Shown piece by piece: positions 22,166 through 64,000 of a stretch of DNA of 64,000 bases. Location: assembly GCA_014801985.1 (NCBI GenBank), contig JAAVDD010000013.1:6702-70701 (forward strand), read 5' to 3'. Numbering within the stretch: position 1 is the first letter of the stretch; each line of letters opens with the position of its first letter. A model generated the notes under the pieces. It saw nothing but the letters and a program-made list of their open reading frames with translations, was not told the DNA's origin and searched no databases. The position numbers were made by a program, and so were the translations under genes. Source of the DNA: Bacteroides sp. Lineage in GTDB: Bacteria > Bacteroidota > Bacteroidia > Bacteroidales > Muribaculaceae.

Positions 22166-23677
22166 ATGAGTAAACTTGATGTATATGCAATCGGATCATC
22201 TCAACTCACCTATGATCTGATTGAAAGAATATTGAATGATAAAACGCGACTCATCCTTTCTGAGGAGGGCAGAGCCCGTATCACTCACTGTAGAGAATTT
22301 TTGGATAAAAAAACAGATGAAAACACAATTCCAATTTATGGAGTTACCACAGGTTTCGGTTCTCTCTGTAATAAACATATCTCCAGAGAAGATCTGTCCA
22401 CATTACAGGAAAATCTTGTTAAAAGCCATTCCTGTAGTGTAGGTACTCCGGTTGACAGTGTTATCGTAAAACTGATGCTTCTTCTGAAAGCTCATGCTCT
22501 GACAATGGGATATAGTGGAGTTCAGGTGCAGACCGTGGAGAGAATAATCGACTTCTATAATAATGATGCTCTTCCCGTTGTCTATGACCGAGGTTCACTT
22601 GGAGCTTCCGGCGACCTTGCTCCTTTAGCAAATCTGTTCCTTCCTCTAATTGGAGAGGGAGAGATGGTGCTCGATGGAATTAAGTATAAAAGCTCCGATG
22701 TCCTTAACCGTTTCGGTTGGAAGCCTATTAAGCTCCAATCAAAGGAGGGTCTTGCTCTATTGAATGGAACGCAGTTTATGAGTGCAAATGGTATAAAGGC
22801 TCTCATTGACGGTTGGCATTTGGTGAACTGTTTTGATCTTTTCGGAGCAATGTCACTTGAGGCTTTTGACGGTCGTATCGAACCGTTTTGGGATTGCATT
22901 CAGCAGGTTCGCCCTCATCCCGGACAGATTCAGACAGGTAAAGTTTTCCGTGAGCTTTTAAAAGGAAGCGAAATAATCAAGAGAGAAAAAGAACATGTGC
23001 AGGATCCTTACTCTTTCCGTTGTATCCCTCAGGTTCATGGAGCAGTGAAGGATGCAATGAATCATGTAACAGAGATTCTACACATTGAGATTAATTCTGT
23101 GACCGATAATCCGACTGTCTTCCCTGATGAAGATCTTGTCGTATCAGGAGGAAATTTCCATGGTGAACCTTTAGCATTAGCGTTTGATTATATGGGTGTT
23201 GCACTTCATGAGCTGGGTAATATATCTGAACGTCGCACTGCACAGTTGATTCTCGGAATACGTGGTCTGCCTGAATTCTTGGTTGCTAAACCGGGTTTAA
23301 ATTCAGGTTTCATGATTCCTCAGTATGCAGCTGCTTCAATGGTAAGTCAAAACAAGATGTATGCTTGGCCGGCATCATGCGATTCTATTGTCAGCTCAAA
23401 TGGTCAAGAGGATCTTGTTTCAATGGGTGCAAATGCCGGAACCAAACTACATAAGATTGTAGATAACCTGAAATACATCGCAGCCATTGAACTTATGAAT
23501 GCTGCGCAGGGAATTGATTTCAGAAAACCACTAAAGTCTTCACCTTTTATTGAAAAGGTAATGAATGACTATCGTGAACATCTTCCATTTGTGGAGGATG
23601 ATGTCGTAATGGCAGATTATATTGCCAAGACGATGGAATTCCTCGAAAATTATGAAATAAATTTCGAAGGAATTTGA
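22166..23677 (+). CDS. hutH: Histidine ammonia-lyase
   Basis: YGVTTGFGSLCN, DRGSLGASGDLAPLANLFLPLIGEG (MIO-forming ASG), SVTDNPTVFPDED. Confidence 0.95.
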   Translation: MSKLDVYAIGSSQLTYDLIERILNDKTRLILSEEGRARITHCREFLDKKTDENTIPIYGVTTGFGSLCNKHISREDLSTLQENLVKSHSCSVGTPVDSVIVKLMLLLKAHALTMGYSGVQVQTVERIIDFYNNDALPVVYDRGSLGASGDLAPLANLFLPLIGEGEMVLDGIKYKSSDVLNRFGWKPIKLQSKEGLALLNGTQFMSANGIKALIDGWHLVNCFDLFGAMSLEAFDGRIEPFWDCIQQVRPHPGQIQTGKVFRELLKGSEIIKREKEHVQDPYSFRCIPQVHGAVKDAMNHVTEILHIEINSVTDNPTVFPDEDLVVSGGNFHGEPLALAFDYMGVALHELGNISERRTAQLILGIRGLPEFLVAKPGLNSGFMIPQYAAASMVSQNKMYAWPASCDSIVSSNGQEDLVSMGANAGTKLHKIVDNLKYIAAIELMNAAQGIDFRKPLKSSPFIEKVMNDYREHLPFVEDDVVMADYIAKTMEFLENYEINFEGI

Positions 23678-23691
23678 TCCATATCAAAATA

Positions 23692-23726
23692 ATAAAAGGA
23701 ACAGGGTCATTCTCTGTTCCTTTTAT
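23692..23726 (+). terminator. Terminator after hutH (ATAAAAGGAACAG...CTGTTCCTTTTAT)
   Basis: 13-bp perfect stem. Confidence 0.85.
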
Positions 23727-23770
23727 TTATATAAGTATAAGTAAGCTTTCTAAATTAGTTAATATTATCA

Positions 23771-23930
23771 AATAAGTGAGTAAAGTATCAGGCCAATGTT
23801 CTTTTTGCTTTTGAGCGGTCTCTTTGCCCCTCGCTCAGTCGCATAGCCCGCTATGCTCCTTCGCTCGCGAGACAAACAGCCGCACTCAAAATTCAAAAAT
23901 AACTATTGGCTAATTTCTCAAACTTACATA
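23771..23930. repeat. Long imperfect palindromic intergenic element with core GCATAGC-CC-GCTATGC
   Basis: Arms pair outward from centre ~23848/23849: core 23841-23856, GTCTC/GAGAC, TTTTGAG/CTCAAAA, GGCCAAT (23791) / ATTGGC (23905-23910), AAGTGAG/CTCAAACTT. Confidence 0.7.
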
Positions 23931-23958
23931 TGGTAAATATTCTTACCTATCTAAAGTG

Positions 23959-25416
23959 TCATCTTTTAATTAACCTTACCACATTCTCAACATGATGGGT
24001 ATGAGGGAACATATCCACCGGTTGAACATCGGTTACTTTATATTTAGCATCTAATAATGCAAGATCACGTGCCTGAGTCGCAGGATTACAACTGACATAA
24101 ACCAGCACTTCAGGTTCGGCACGTAGTATGACATTCACTACATCTTCATGCATACCTGCACGTGGGGGGTCTATTATCATTACATCCGGACGACCATGTT
24201 TTTTTACAAAATCATCAGTCAGAATATCTTTCATGTCTCCGGCATAAAATAGTGTATTATCTAAGCCATTTACTTTTGCATTTAGTTTTGCATCCTCAAT
24301 AGCCGCCTCCACATATTCTATGCCTATGACCTTTTGTGCTTGTCGTGCCACAAAGTTGGCGATAGTGCCTGTTCCTGTATAAAGGTCATAAACTAAAGGC
24401 TTCCCTTTTCTGTCATCTATAGCATTAGGTGAAAGTCCTGCAAATTCTCTTGCAACTTTGTAAAGCTCATATGCCTGAAGTGAATTAGTCTGATAGAAAG
24501 ATTTTGCATTGACTCTGAAACGTAAACCTTCCATCTCTTCTTCTATATAATCAGGTCCCTTGAAACTTTGAACATTCAAATCTCCGATTGTGTCATTAAG
24601 TTTAAGATTGACAACAAAAAGAAGTGAAGTAATTTCAGGAAAATTTTCTGAAATAGCAGTAAGAAGTGCATTACTGAGATCCGGATTCTCTTCGCCGAAA
24701 CTAATGCAAACCATTATTTCTCCTGTAGATGCAATTCGGATCATTAATGTGCGTAGAAGACCGGTATTCTCTTTTATGTTATAAAAGGAAAGGGCATTCT
24801 CTTCTGCATACTGATAAATGAAATTTCGGATTCGATTGCCTAGATCATCCTGAAGGTGACAGTTTTCGATATGGTACACCTTGTCAAAGCCACCCGGTAT
24901 ATGAAATCCAAGTGCATTAGGACTGTCAGTGAATTCCTTTCCTGATTTAACATCCTCCCATGTACGCCATTTTTTATTGGAGAAAGTGTATTCCATTTTG
25001 TTGCGGTATCCCCATATTTTTTCTGATCCCAAGATAGGGGAAATCTCCGGCAATTCCACTTTTGCAATTCGAGTTAATGCATCAATCACCTGTTGCTGCT
25101 TGAATTTTAGTTGCTCAGAATAGGGGAGATGTTGCCATTTACATCCACCGCAGATTGTAAAATGCGAACAATGAGGTTCTGTTCTTATGGGAGAAGGCTC
25201 GACAAGGCGTTCAATATGTCCTTCTGCAAAACTTCTTTTCTTTTTATCTATTTTTATATCAGCGATGTCTCCCGGTGCACCGAAAGGTACAAACACTACG
25301 ATTGGAGATTCATCGGTCTCCTTTATCTTAACACGAGTCAGAGCCTTTCCTTCGGCTGCTACACCTGTGATTTGCACCCCTTTAAGAAGGGGTAGCGTTT
25401 TCTGTTTTCTTCCCAT
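23959..25416 (-). CDS. rlmD: 23S rRNA (uracil-5-)-methyltransferase, RumA/RlmD family
   Basis: TRAM-like N-term, HFTICGGCKWQHLPY Fe-S motif, VYDLYTGTGTIANFVA, MIIDPPRAGMH, YVSCNPATQARDL. Confidence 0.9.
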   Translation of the reverse strand: MGRKQKTLPLLKGVQITGVAAEGKALTRVKIKETDESPIVVFVPFGAPGDIADIKIDKKKRSFAEGHIERLVEPSPIRTEPHCSHFTICGGCKWQHLPYSEQLKFKQQQVIDALTRIAKVELPEISPILGSEKIWGYRNKMEYTFSNKKWRTWEDVKSGKEFTDSPNALGFHIPGGFDKVYHIENCHLQDDLGNRIRNFIYQYAEENALSFYNIKENTGLLRTLMIRIASTGEIMVCISFGEENPDLSNALLTAISENFPEITSLLFVVNLKLNDTIGDLNVQSFKGPDYIEEEMEGLRFRVNAKSFYQTNSLQAYELYKVAREFAGLSPNAIDDRKGKPLVYDLYTGTGTIANFVARQAQKVIGIEYVEAAIEDAKLNAKVNGLDNTLFYAGDMKDILTDDFVKKHGRPDVMIIDPPRAGMHEDVVNVILRAEPEVLVYVSCNPATQARDLALLDAKYKVTDVQPVDMFPHTHHVENVVRLIKR

Positions 25417-61146: not shown

Positions 61147-62976
61147 ATGGTTAATAAACTGAGAAGCTACGCCAGCACTTTCGGACGGAGAATGGCCGGG
61201 GCGAGAGCACTTTGGCGAGCAAACGGCATGAAAGAGGAGCAGATGGGGAAACCCATTATCGCTATTGTCAATTCTTTCACTCAATTTGTACCCGGACATA
61301 CACATCTTCATGAAATCGGACAGATTGTCAAAAAGGAGATTGACTCATTAGGATGTTTCGCCGCGGAGTTCAATACAATCGCTATTGACGATGGTATAGC
61401 CATGGGCCATGACGGAATGCTATATTCCCTCCCTTCACGTGATTTAATTGCTGACTCGGTAGAGTATATGGTCAATGCTCATAAGGCTGATGCAATGATA
61501 TGTATCAGCAACTGCGATAAGGTCACCCCCGGCATGCTGATGGCAGCCATGCGTCTAAACATTCCAACGATATTTGTATCAGGAGGCCCGATGGAGGCTG
61601 GAAATATCAATGGCAAGAAAGTCGATCTTATTAATATAATGATTGATTCTGCTGATGACTCCAAGACTGATAAAGAGGTGGAAGATCTGGAAAAATTAGG
61701 ATGTCCCACATGTGGTTCATGCTCCGGTATGTTTACTGCAAATTCCATGAACTCTCTCAATGAGGCCATTGGATTAGCTCTGCCTGGAAATGGGACAGTA
61801 CTTGCATCGCACAAAAATAGAATCGAACTTTTTAAGGATGCAGCGCGCAAGATCGTTGAAAACACATATAAATATTATAGAGATGGCGACGATAGCGTGC
61901 TCCCCCGAAGCATCGCCACAAGAGATGCGATGCTTAATGCAATGACTCTCGATATTGCAATGGGAGGAAGCACCAACACTGTGCTTCATCTTTTAGCCGT
62001 GGCTAACGAAGCCGGAGCAGACTTTTCTATGACTGATATAGATATGCTTTCACGTAAGACACCGGTCTTATGTAAGGTGGCTCCAAACAGCGAATATCAC
62101 ATCGAGGATGTTAATCGTGCAGGTGGCATCCTGTCTATTATGAGGGAACTCGCTAAAGAGGGACTGATTAATACAGAAGTCAAGCGTGTCGATGGGATCA
62201 CACTTGGAGAAGCAATAGACGAATATGCCTTGAATGGTAAAAACTATTCTGAAAAAGCTGATGCTCTATGGCATTCTGCACCAGGAGGAGTAAAGACTAC
62301 AATCATGGGCTCGCAGGAGAATAGGTATAAGTCTCTGGACACTGACCGGACTGAGGGGTGTATCCGTGATTTTGACCATGCATACGTGAAAGATGGAGGT
62401 CTTGCTGTATTAAAGGGGAACATTGCTGTAGACGGATGTGTTGTGAAAACTGCGGGTGTGGATGAAAGTATTTTTAAATTCTCCGGTCCGGCTAAAGTGT
62501 TTAATTCGCAGGAGGAGGCCGTAGAAGGGATTCTATCCGATAAAGTCAAGAGCGGAGATGTTGTGGTAATTCTCTATGAGGGTCCCAAAGGAGGCCCGGG
62601 AATGCAGGAAATGCTATATCCCACCAGTTACATCAAAAGTAAACATTTAGGTAAGGAATGTGCGCTAATTACTGATGGACGATTCTCTGGAGGAACATCC
62701 GGTCTTTCCATTGGACATATATCTCCTGAGGCAGCTGCAGGTGGAAATATAGCTCTCATAAAAGATGGAGATATCATAGATATTGATATCCCGGCACGTT
62801 CGATCAATGTGCGTCTTTCAGAGGAAGAACTATCAAAACGACGTGAAGAGGAACTTGATTTCGGTAAGAGTGCATTCACTCCAAGATCCAGAGATAGATA
62901 TATAAGCCGTGCACTTAAAGCATACGCGGCTTCAGTGACCTCCGCAGATAAAGGAGGTGTGAGAAAGGAACTTTAA
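61147..62976 (+). CDS. ilvD: Dihydroxy-acid dehydratase
   Basis: [76 protein letters not shown] at 61147 preferred over TTG at 61111. Confidence 0.95.
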
Positions 62977-62987
62977 ACGGAAGAATC

Positions 62988-64000
62988 ATGAGTAATCAAA
63001 TTTCCGGAGCAGAAATACTTATAAGGTCGCTTATCGACCAGGGTGTAAAAAATATATTCGGGTATCCGGGTGGTACTATTATGCCTGTGTATGACAAACT
63101 ATATGACTACACAGATCGTATTAATCACTATCTTGCCCGTCATGAACAAGGTGCAATCCATGCAGCTGAAGGCTTTGCAAGGGTCACCGGAAAAACCGGT
63201 GTGGTATTCGCAACTTCCGGACCCGGGGCGATGAATCTTCTCACCGGCCTAAATGACGCCTTGATCGATAGCACTCCCATTGTCGCGATCACAGGACAGG
63301 TGGCTACCGCGTTTCTTGGTAAAGATGCTTTTCAGGAATCCGATATTGTCAGCGTGACTTTACCGGTGACTAAATGGACTATTCAGGTACGTAAGCCGGA
63401 AGATATAGCCCCTGCTGTGGCTAAAGCATTCTATATTGCAAATTCGGGTCGGCCGGGTCCGGTAGTGGTTGATCTCACCAAGGACGCCCAGATGGCCATG
63501 GCCGAATACAAAGTTGAGACATGTGATTATATCCGCAGTTATCATCCTAATCCTGAAATAAAGGATGCAGTGATTCTGGAAGCAGCAGAGATGATCAATA
63601 ATGCAAAACGCCCACTCATTCTTGCAGGCCATGGCATATCGATTGCAAATGCCGAGAATCTACTCATACAGTTGGCGGAAAAGGCTCAAATTCCGGTGGG
63701 ATGTACAATGTTGGGTCTCTCTGCAATTCCAACCTCTCATCCGCTTTACAAGGGAATGTTGGGTATGCATGGAAATATAGGACCGAACATAAATACAAAT
63801 AACGCTGACGTAATCATCGCGTTAGGGATGAGATTTGATGATCGTGTCACAGGCGATGTTACAAAATATGCTCCAGATGCTAAAATTATTCATATGGACA
63901 TCGACGCCAGTGAATTTGATAAATGCATCAAGAGCGACCTCCATATACATGGATGCGTGAATCAAGCATTGAAAAAGCTTATTCCTTTTGTAAATGAATC
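62988..64000 (+). CDS. ilvB: Acetolactate synthase large subunit (3' end outside window)
   Basis: Manual translation MSNQISGAEILIRSLIDQGVKNIFGYPGGTIMPVYDKLYDY...ARHEQGAIHAAEGFARVTGKTGVVFATSGPGAMNLLTGLNDA; follows ilvD. Confidence 0.94.
   Translation, partial: MSNQISGAEILIRSLIDQGVKNIFGYPGGTIMPVYDKLYDYTDRINHYLARHEQGAIHAAEGFARVTGKTGVVFATSGPGAMNLLTGLNDALIDSTPIVAITGQVATAFLGKDAFQESDIVSVTLPVTKWTIQVRKPEDIAPAVAKAFYIANSGRPGPVVVDLTKDAQMAMAEYKVETCDYIRSYHPNPEIKDAVILEAAEMINNAKRPLILAGHGISIANAENLLIQLAEKAQIPVGCTMLGLSAIPTSHPLYKGMLGMHGNIGPNINTNNADVIIALGMRFDDRVTGDVTKYAPDAKIIHMDIDASEFDKCIKSDLHIHGCVNQALKKLIPFVNE

Follow-up and report, generated by a model that had tools for sequence, protein, structure and literature searches.

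The repeat unit of pneumococcus (RUP) is short, intergenic and non-coding, its terminal inverted repeats (TIRs) are like those of an IS630 element of the same genome (IS630-Spn1), and it combines TA termini with a TA target (PMC2229807). Correia/NEMIS elements of Neisseria are MITEs with TA termini, often intergenic (PMC2229807, PMC10969869), with known promoters and an IHF site, and they are cut by RNase III in transcripts (reviewed in PMC10969869). MITEs of the order Bacteroidales are represented by BrickBuilt, MITE293 and MITE700 of Porphyromonas gingivalis, which have IS5-like or ISPg3-like ends and, in the case of BrickBuilt, internal 23-nt tandem repeats (PMC4596501). Tagged hairpins characterise the REP/REPIN sequences associated with a RAYT.

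We analysed a palindrome within a window of 64,000 nucleotides from a draft Muribaculaceae genome. On sequence evidence it is very probably a copy of a non-autonomous MITE of the IS630 type (Tc1/mariner superfamily), from a new family in Bacteroidales, because it is multicopy, has ends matching those of IS630, shows no target duplication longer than TA, and all assessable insertions are intergenic. Judged by RUP's description, the element is comparable to it in the features listed above, with TA as its probable target; RUP, however, measures 107 bp, whereas most of the elements here span 183-261 bp, fold back over a long stretch and have an apex core that persists across genera. Correia elements differ in host, ends and core. 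The ends of the Porphyromonas gingivalis MITEs differ as well, and the string GCATAGC is absent from the text of PMC4596501. The tagged hairpin, and inverted pairs in some relatives, are shared with REP/REPIN sequences, but here no associated RAYT was found, the element is longer and TIR-bounded, and the repeat at its borders is TA only. A literature search of incomplete coverage found no paper describing this MITE family. The features of the locus are as follows.

22166-23677, plus strand: hutH (name from the earlier note), upstream neighbour outside the element, from the ORF list.
23697-23725, plus strand: terminator-like hairpin of hutH, AAAAGGAACAG...CTGTTCCTTTT, separate from the element, read from the sequence.
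23738-23930, unstranded: complete MITE copy of subfamily A, 193 bp; same-genome copies align over exactly this span and identity is lost at both ends.
23738-23758, plus strand: left TIR TAAGTAAGCTTTCTAAATTAG, including the target TA, from TIR alignment and counts (17/22 against the left end of the IS630 element of the same genome).
23797-23834, plus strand: left inner arm (GTTCTTTTTGCTTTTGAGCGGTCTCTTTG...), partner of 23860-23906, from folds and covariation.
23835-23859, plus strand: conserved apex core TCAGTCGCATAGCCCGCTATGCTCC, a 25-mer identical in sister subfamilies and found in other genera with allowed R/Y variants.
23841-23856, unstranded: apex hairpin GCATAGC-CC-GCTATGC, from folds, with compensatory variants in relatives.
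23860-23906, plus strand: right inner arm (TTCGCTCGCGAGACAAACAGCC...TCAAAAATAAC), from folds and covariation.
23910-23930, minus strand: right TIR CTAATTTCTCAAACTTACATA (end of other copies, CTTACTTA), from copy alignment.
23959-25416, minus strand: flanking convergent gene outside the element, from the ORF list.

The earlier note on this DNA had described a palindrome of ~160 bp at 23771-23930. The palindrome is present and far stronger than chance, but its true extent is the 193 bp of 23738-23930: the proposed start was too far right, and in the copy alignment the outermost arms begin 33 bp earlier. Symmetry around ~23848 was recovered, with the centre at 23848/23849 inside the core formed by GCATAGCC and CGCTATGC (23841-23856). 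The TIRs of the element are TAAGTAAG...CTTACTTA; apart from a mutated right end (CATA instead of CTTA), the window copy is typical of its subfamily. Folded alone, 23771-23930 reaches -46.9 kcal/mol on the plus strand (z = -5.34) and -58.6 kcal/mol on the minus strand (z = -5.30), and none of 200 dinucleotide shuffles folded as well. Most single folds also show a side hairpin on the left arm, but the consensus does not. The six-frame list holds no ORF of 60 aa or more inside the palindrome, in agreement with its reading as non-coding. Two octamers on the minus strand, TAAGTTTG in the right TIR (23919-23926) and TATTTTTG further in (23894-23901), fit the Bacteroidetes -7 promoter consensus, TAnnTTTG, and point into the element. 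The position between convergent genes was confirmed: hutH stops 60 bp before the element, and 28 bp separate the element from the 3' end of the facing gene, which we presume from sequence motifs to encode an RNA methyltransferase of RumA/TrmA type. The hutH gene does have a terminator-like hairpin of its own, distinct from the element.

The draft source genome (2.52 Mb in 55 contigs, 77% complete) was searched by BLAST with 23740-23960 and gave 33 matches, 11 of them near full length (window copy included), as expected of the dispersed element that had been proposed. Copies of this subfamily, designated A, have sharp common ends, TAAGTAAGTTTTCTAAATTAG and CTAATTTCTCAAACTTACTTA, and unrelated flanks when aligned with their surroundings; it also includes two copies with internal deletions, now 88 and 77 bp long, and several that are truncated. 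Further matches cover the centre only and lie in elements with like-styled ends and other arms, namely subfamily B (TAAGTAGCTACTAAAAATTAATCG..., elements of 106, 190, 195 and 241 bp) and subfamily C (TAAGTAGCTGTTCAAATTAAAC..., 196 and 241 bp); the apex 25-mer is exactly common to all three. The end pattern TAAGTARNTNNTNNAAATTA occurs 39+35 times in the genome, against 2+0 for a reversed-pattern control. These 74 end matches correspond to about 37 elements, sister subfamilies with the same ends included, and facing end pairs stand 77-241 bp apart. The repeats are thus short (<500 bp), non-coding, multicopy and dispersed, as MITEs are. Several copies sit at contig ends (C17, C5, C24, C40, C26 and C10), and both ends of C17 have flanks in common with C5 and C24; the element is a probable cause of breaks in the draft assembly.

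The source genome also holds an insertion sequence at C11:61926-63050, with a DDE_3 transposase (PF13358, E = 4.9e-27) between TAAGTAACTGTTCAAAATTA and TAAGTGAGTAGTCAAATTTA. Position 61926 was first seen as a solitary end and then recognised as the left end of this insertion sequence, the right one being at 63050. The gene is the only DDE_3 (IS630-type transposase) match in the draft. Its transposase (loci L086/L113) is split over two frames, so the activity of this copy is uncertain, and the N-terminal part may also be interrupted. Transposases at two further loci, L122 and L123, likewise look as if read in two frames, which may reflect programmed frameshifting or decay. IS630 relatives in 12 other genomes of the family were scanned for inverted, TA-ended pairs at any spacing of 950-1500 bp; in most, the best or near-best pair delimited an element of ~1.1 kb with TAAGTA ends. 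The IS630 elements do not contain the apex core; the TIRs are common to them and the MITEs. The left end of subfamily B is identical at 22/22 positions to an IS630 end of a same-genus genome, and so is the right end of the element at L046 to an IS630 end of genome G092. The left end of subfamily A matches the IS630 end at 18/22 positions, a score equalled by 0 of 4343 TA-starting 22-mers of the window; for the window copy itself the match to the IS630 left end is 17/22, equalled by 3 of 4343. Counting against IS630 as the mover, DDE_3 matches were found in only 2 of the 25 core-bearing relatives searched, and the copy in the source genome may be inactive.

No target duplication longer than TA was detected among 70 insertions. 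TA is present at every end, hence a TA duplication is inseparable from the element's own sequence; IS630 elements are expected to leave a TA duplication and nothing longer. One scan of viral contigs revealed no joined empty site. All 56 assessable insertions are intergenic, with no ORF interrupted, and most copies lie within ~100 bp of a gene. Several neighbouring genes end in frame on the first TAA of the element, which is their stop codon (L091 at 1501, L103 at 1520, L206, L218 at both ends, L247, and L300 at 2798), and at 6 of 7 of those stop-codon ends the far TA is followed by A or G. This small count offers a lead, not a result, that insertion may have hit the TA of a stop codon. An element-end TAA serving as the stop codon of a neighbour would be a simple route to harmless insertion.

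From the shared ends we infer that these MITEs are, or once were, actively moved by the IS630 lineage. A transposase made elsewhere in the cell would recognise the TIRs starting TA-AGTA and move the element, inserting it at TA sites, with the TA presumably duplicated on insertion; copies would survive in the gaps between genes. The conserved tip hairpin would serve the element in transposition, by protecting it, or by acting on neighbouring transcripts.

A structural alignment of 14 elements from ten genomes addressed the structure itself. Of the 44 predicted pairs, 25 show change on both sides; pairing cells amount to 94.3%, against 77.5% in shuffled alignments. The covariation score is 0.423, compared with 0.133 +- 0.014 for shuffles (0 of 500 reach it) and at most 0.106 for slid structures. 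The pairing is therefore kept by compensatory change, and a covariance analysis of copies, of the kind suggested by the earlier note, came out positive; with its dispersed copies and this covariation, the palindrome is not the single, unconserved copy that would have spoken against that note. In a pooled alignment of 59 core regions, RNAalifold retained the apex stem only, the arms being too divergent. As these arms are unalignable, an arm-swap comparison was used instead: across 115 core-region clusters, an arm forms a median of 25 pairs with its own partner, against a median of 7 with a partner taken from another element. Hence the two arms of an element change together. At the apex, relatives carry compensatory variants (CTTAG/CTAAG, ATATC/GATAT, CGTAG/CTACG). 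Joint change of the arms suggests either selection on the hairpin or template switching that repairs one arm from the other; the same signal is expected from RNA and from palindromic DNA.

This evidence bears on the structured RNA that the earlier note offered as an alternative. In that reading the MITE would contain a functional RNA structure or a hairpin for mRNA processing: the co-transcribed palindrome would form a long duplex, with its conserved tip recognised by a nuclease or an RNA-binding protein. Such a role is compatible with a MITE origin and competes with it only over the reason for which the structure persists. The palindrome-wide covariation, the preference of arms for their own partners, the conserved TCAGTC/CTCC beside the hairpin and the proximity of most copies to genes are in its favour, as is the cleavage of Correia MITEs by RNase III in transcripts (PMC10969869). 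We nevertheless consider it rather unlikely: all 22 matches of an Rfam search fell far below the gathering score, none above chance, convergent gaps are not favoured by insertions, and DNA cruciforms or template-switch arm repair would give equal covariation.

The apex core extends beyond the IS630-ended elements. Elements with unalignable arms in Muribaculaceae, Prevotella/Prevotellamassilia and other Bacteroidales also contain it, written as TCAGTCRCATAGCYCGCTATGCTCC, and the TCAGTC/CTCC beside its hairpin is conserved. This persistence of the core, and the continued pairing of diverging arms, are the unusual features of the family. An exact scan of a named genome collection gave at least 116 stretches; among the matches listed, hosts include Muribaculaceae (Duncaniella muris, Paramuribaculum, Muribaculum), Prevotella, Prevotellamassilia timonensis, and MAGs labelled by their depositors as Bacteroides, Barnesiella and Porphyromonadaceae. 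One 'Paenibacillus' MAG bearing the core is probably mislabelled. Sparse sampling of other families in the order (291 genomes) did not reveal the core within two mismatches, so its distribution is patchy. The invariance of the core in these sets is partly a selection effect, the core itself having been the query; what is independent of that choice is the failure of the arms to align where the core is identical. Elements with other ends, TAAGAGGYTGTTTAAAAA, TAAGGGGTGTTCTATAAATT and TAAGACCCCATCCCACAAAA, also contain the core. The TAAGAGGYTGTTTAAAAA class reaches 80 end matches in one genome, and palindromic elements of ~300 bp with such ends are abundant (G159, G161, G090, G024, G007), some having two inverted cores. 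For an autonomous partner of this class, the loci read yielded only element pairs or solitary ends, and DDE_3 gave no match in the genomes searched that carry TAAGAGGYTGTTTAAAAA ends. The ends of the TAAGGGGTGTTCTATAAATT class (Prevotellamassilia) match the tested IS630 ends at 11/22 positions, no better than chance.

Plasmid and phage collections gave no element match. A core element is present on two IMG/VR contigs (L306:12938-13120 and L307), in apparent host DNA beside a prophage end; its flanks there are the same as in the L237 record (Muribaculaceae Isolate-036). At L306 this setting is probable because, judged by motifs, one side has an integrase-like gene, a tRNA-like stretch and genes of phage type, and the other a presumed nucleoside-phosphorylase-like gene.

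It is conceivable, and we put it forward tentatively, that the 25-nt apex hairpin is a functional module under selection across Bacteroidales and carried by MITEs of several end types; a host protein or RNA would recognise the structure, and the arms would need only complementarity. If so, the elements would be more than IS630 remnants: they would be mobile hairpins that serve mRNA processing, strand-specific recognition in replication or the enhancement of transposition.

The hairpin also resembles a REP. On the minus strand the apex core reads GGAG, hairpin, CGACTGA, which places the tetranucleotide tag expected of REPs (GTAG/GGAG) at the hairpin foot (GGAG-CATAGCGGGCTATG) and fits the arrangement GGAG, hairpin, YGAC; in some relatives (L043, L044, L051, L054) two inverted cores stand ~150-160 bp apart, as in a REPIN. 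The core would then be recognised by a Y1 tyrosine transposase (RAYT), with the arms incidental. We regard this as very improbable. A RAYT should be flanked by the same repeat, but none of 64 Y1_Tnp loci (30 + 34, about half from core-bearing genomes) has the core as flanking repeats, several core-bearing genomes (G159, G126, G161, G006) have no Y1_Tnp match, and in the source genome the core sits within a longer TIR-bounded palindrome whose ends match IS630, while its Y1 gene is flanked by a different repeat. Of the 'MITE/REP-like' label in the earlier note, the MITE part is thus retained, now specified as IS630-type, and the REP part, with its associated transposase, is not supported. Locus L369 has a truncated Y1 fragment with a core-bearing element ~140 bp away, apparently a case of neighbouring insertion. 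The source genome yielded a single Y1_Tnp gene, which is RAYT-like (334-aa frame at locus L067, match at C12:26534-26779) and is surrounded by three copies of a 34-nt repeat, GATAGTAATCGTGATGCGCACGAAGTAAGCATAA (857-890, 2043-2076 and 2222-2255), one inverted; gene and repeat are likely a genuine RAYT/REP pair of another type.

Neighbour orientation of the 56 insertions (34 tandem, 11 divergent, 11 convergent) is near the background of control TA sites (56, 26 and 18%, respectively). An origin in place as a bidirectional terminator for hutH and the methyltransferase-like gene, to which the position between convergent genes and the strong fold on both strands would lend themselves, is hardly credible, as near-identical copies occupy all three kinds of gap at background frequency without orientation bias, and hutH has its own hairpin upstream.

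As an IS630-type MITE, the element would explain why some common gut Bacteroidales have tens of copies of this repeat per genome, and would tie the repeat to a mover. It also provides a natural series of palindromes, whose arms diverge while the pairing and the tip hairpin stay, in which selection on structure versus sequence in MITEs can be asked about.
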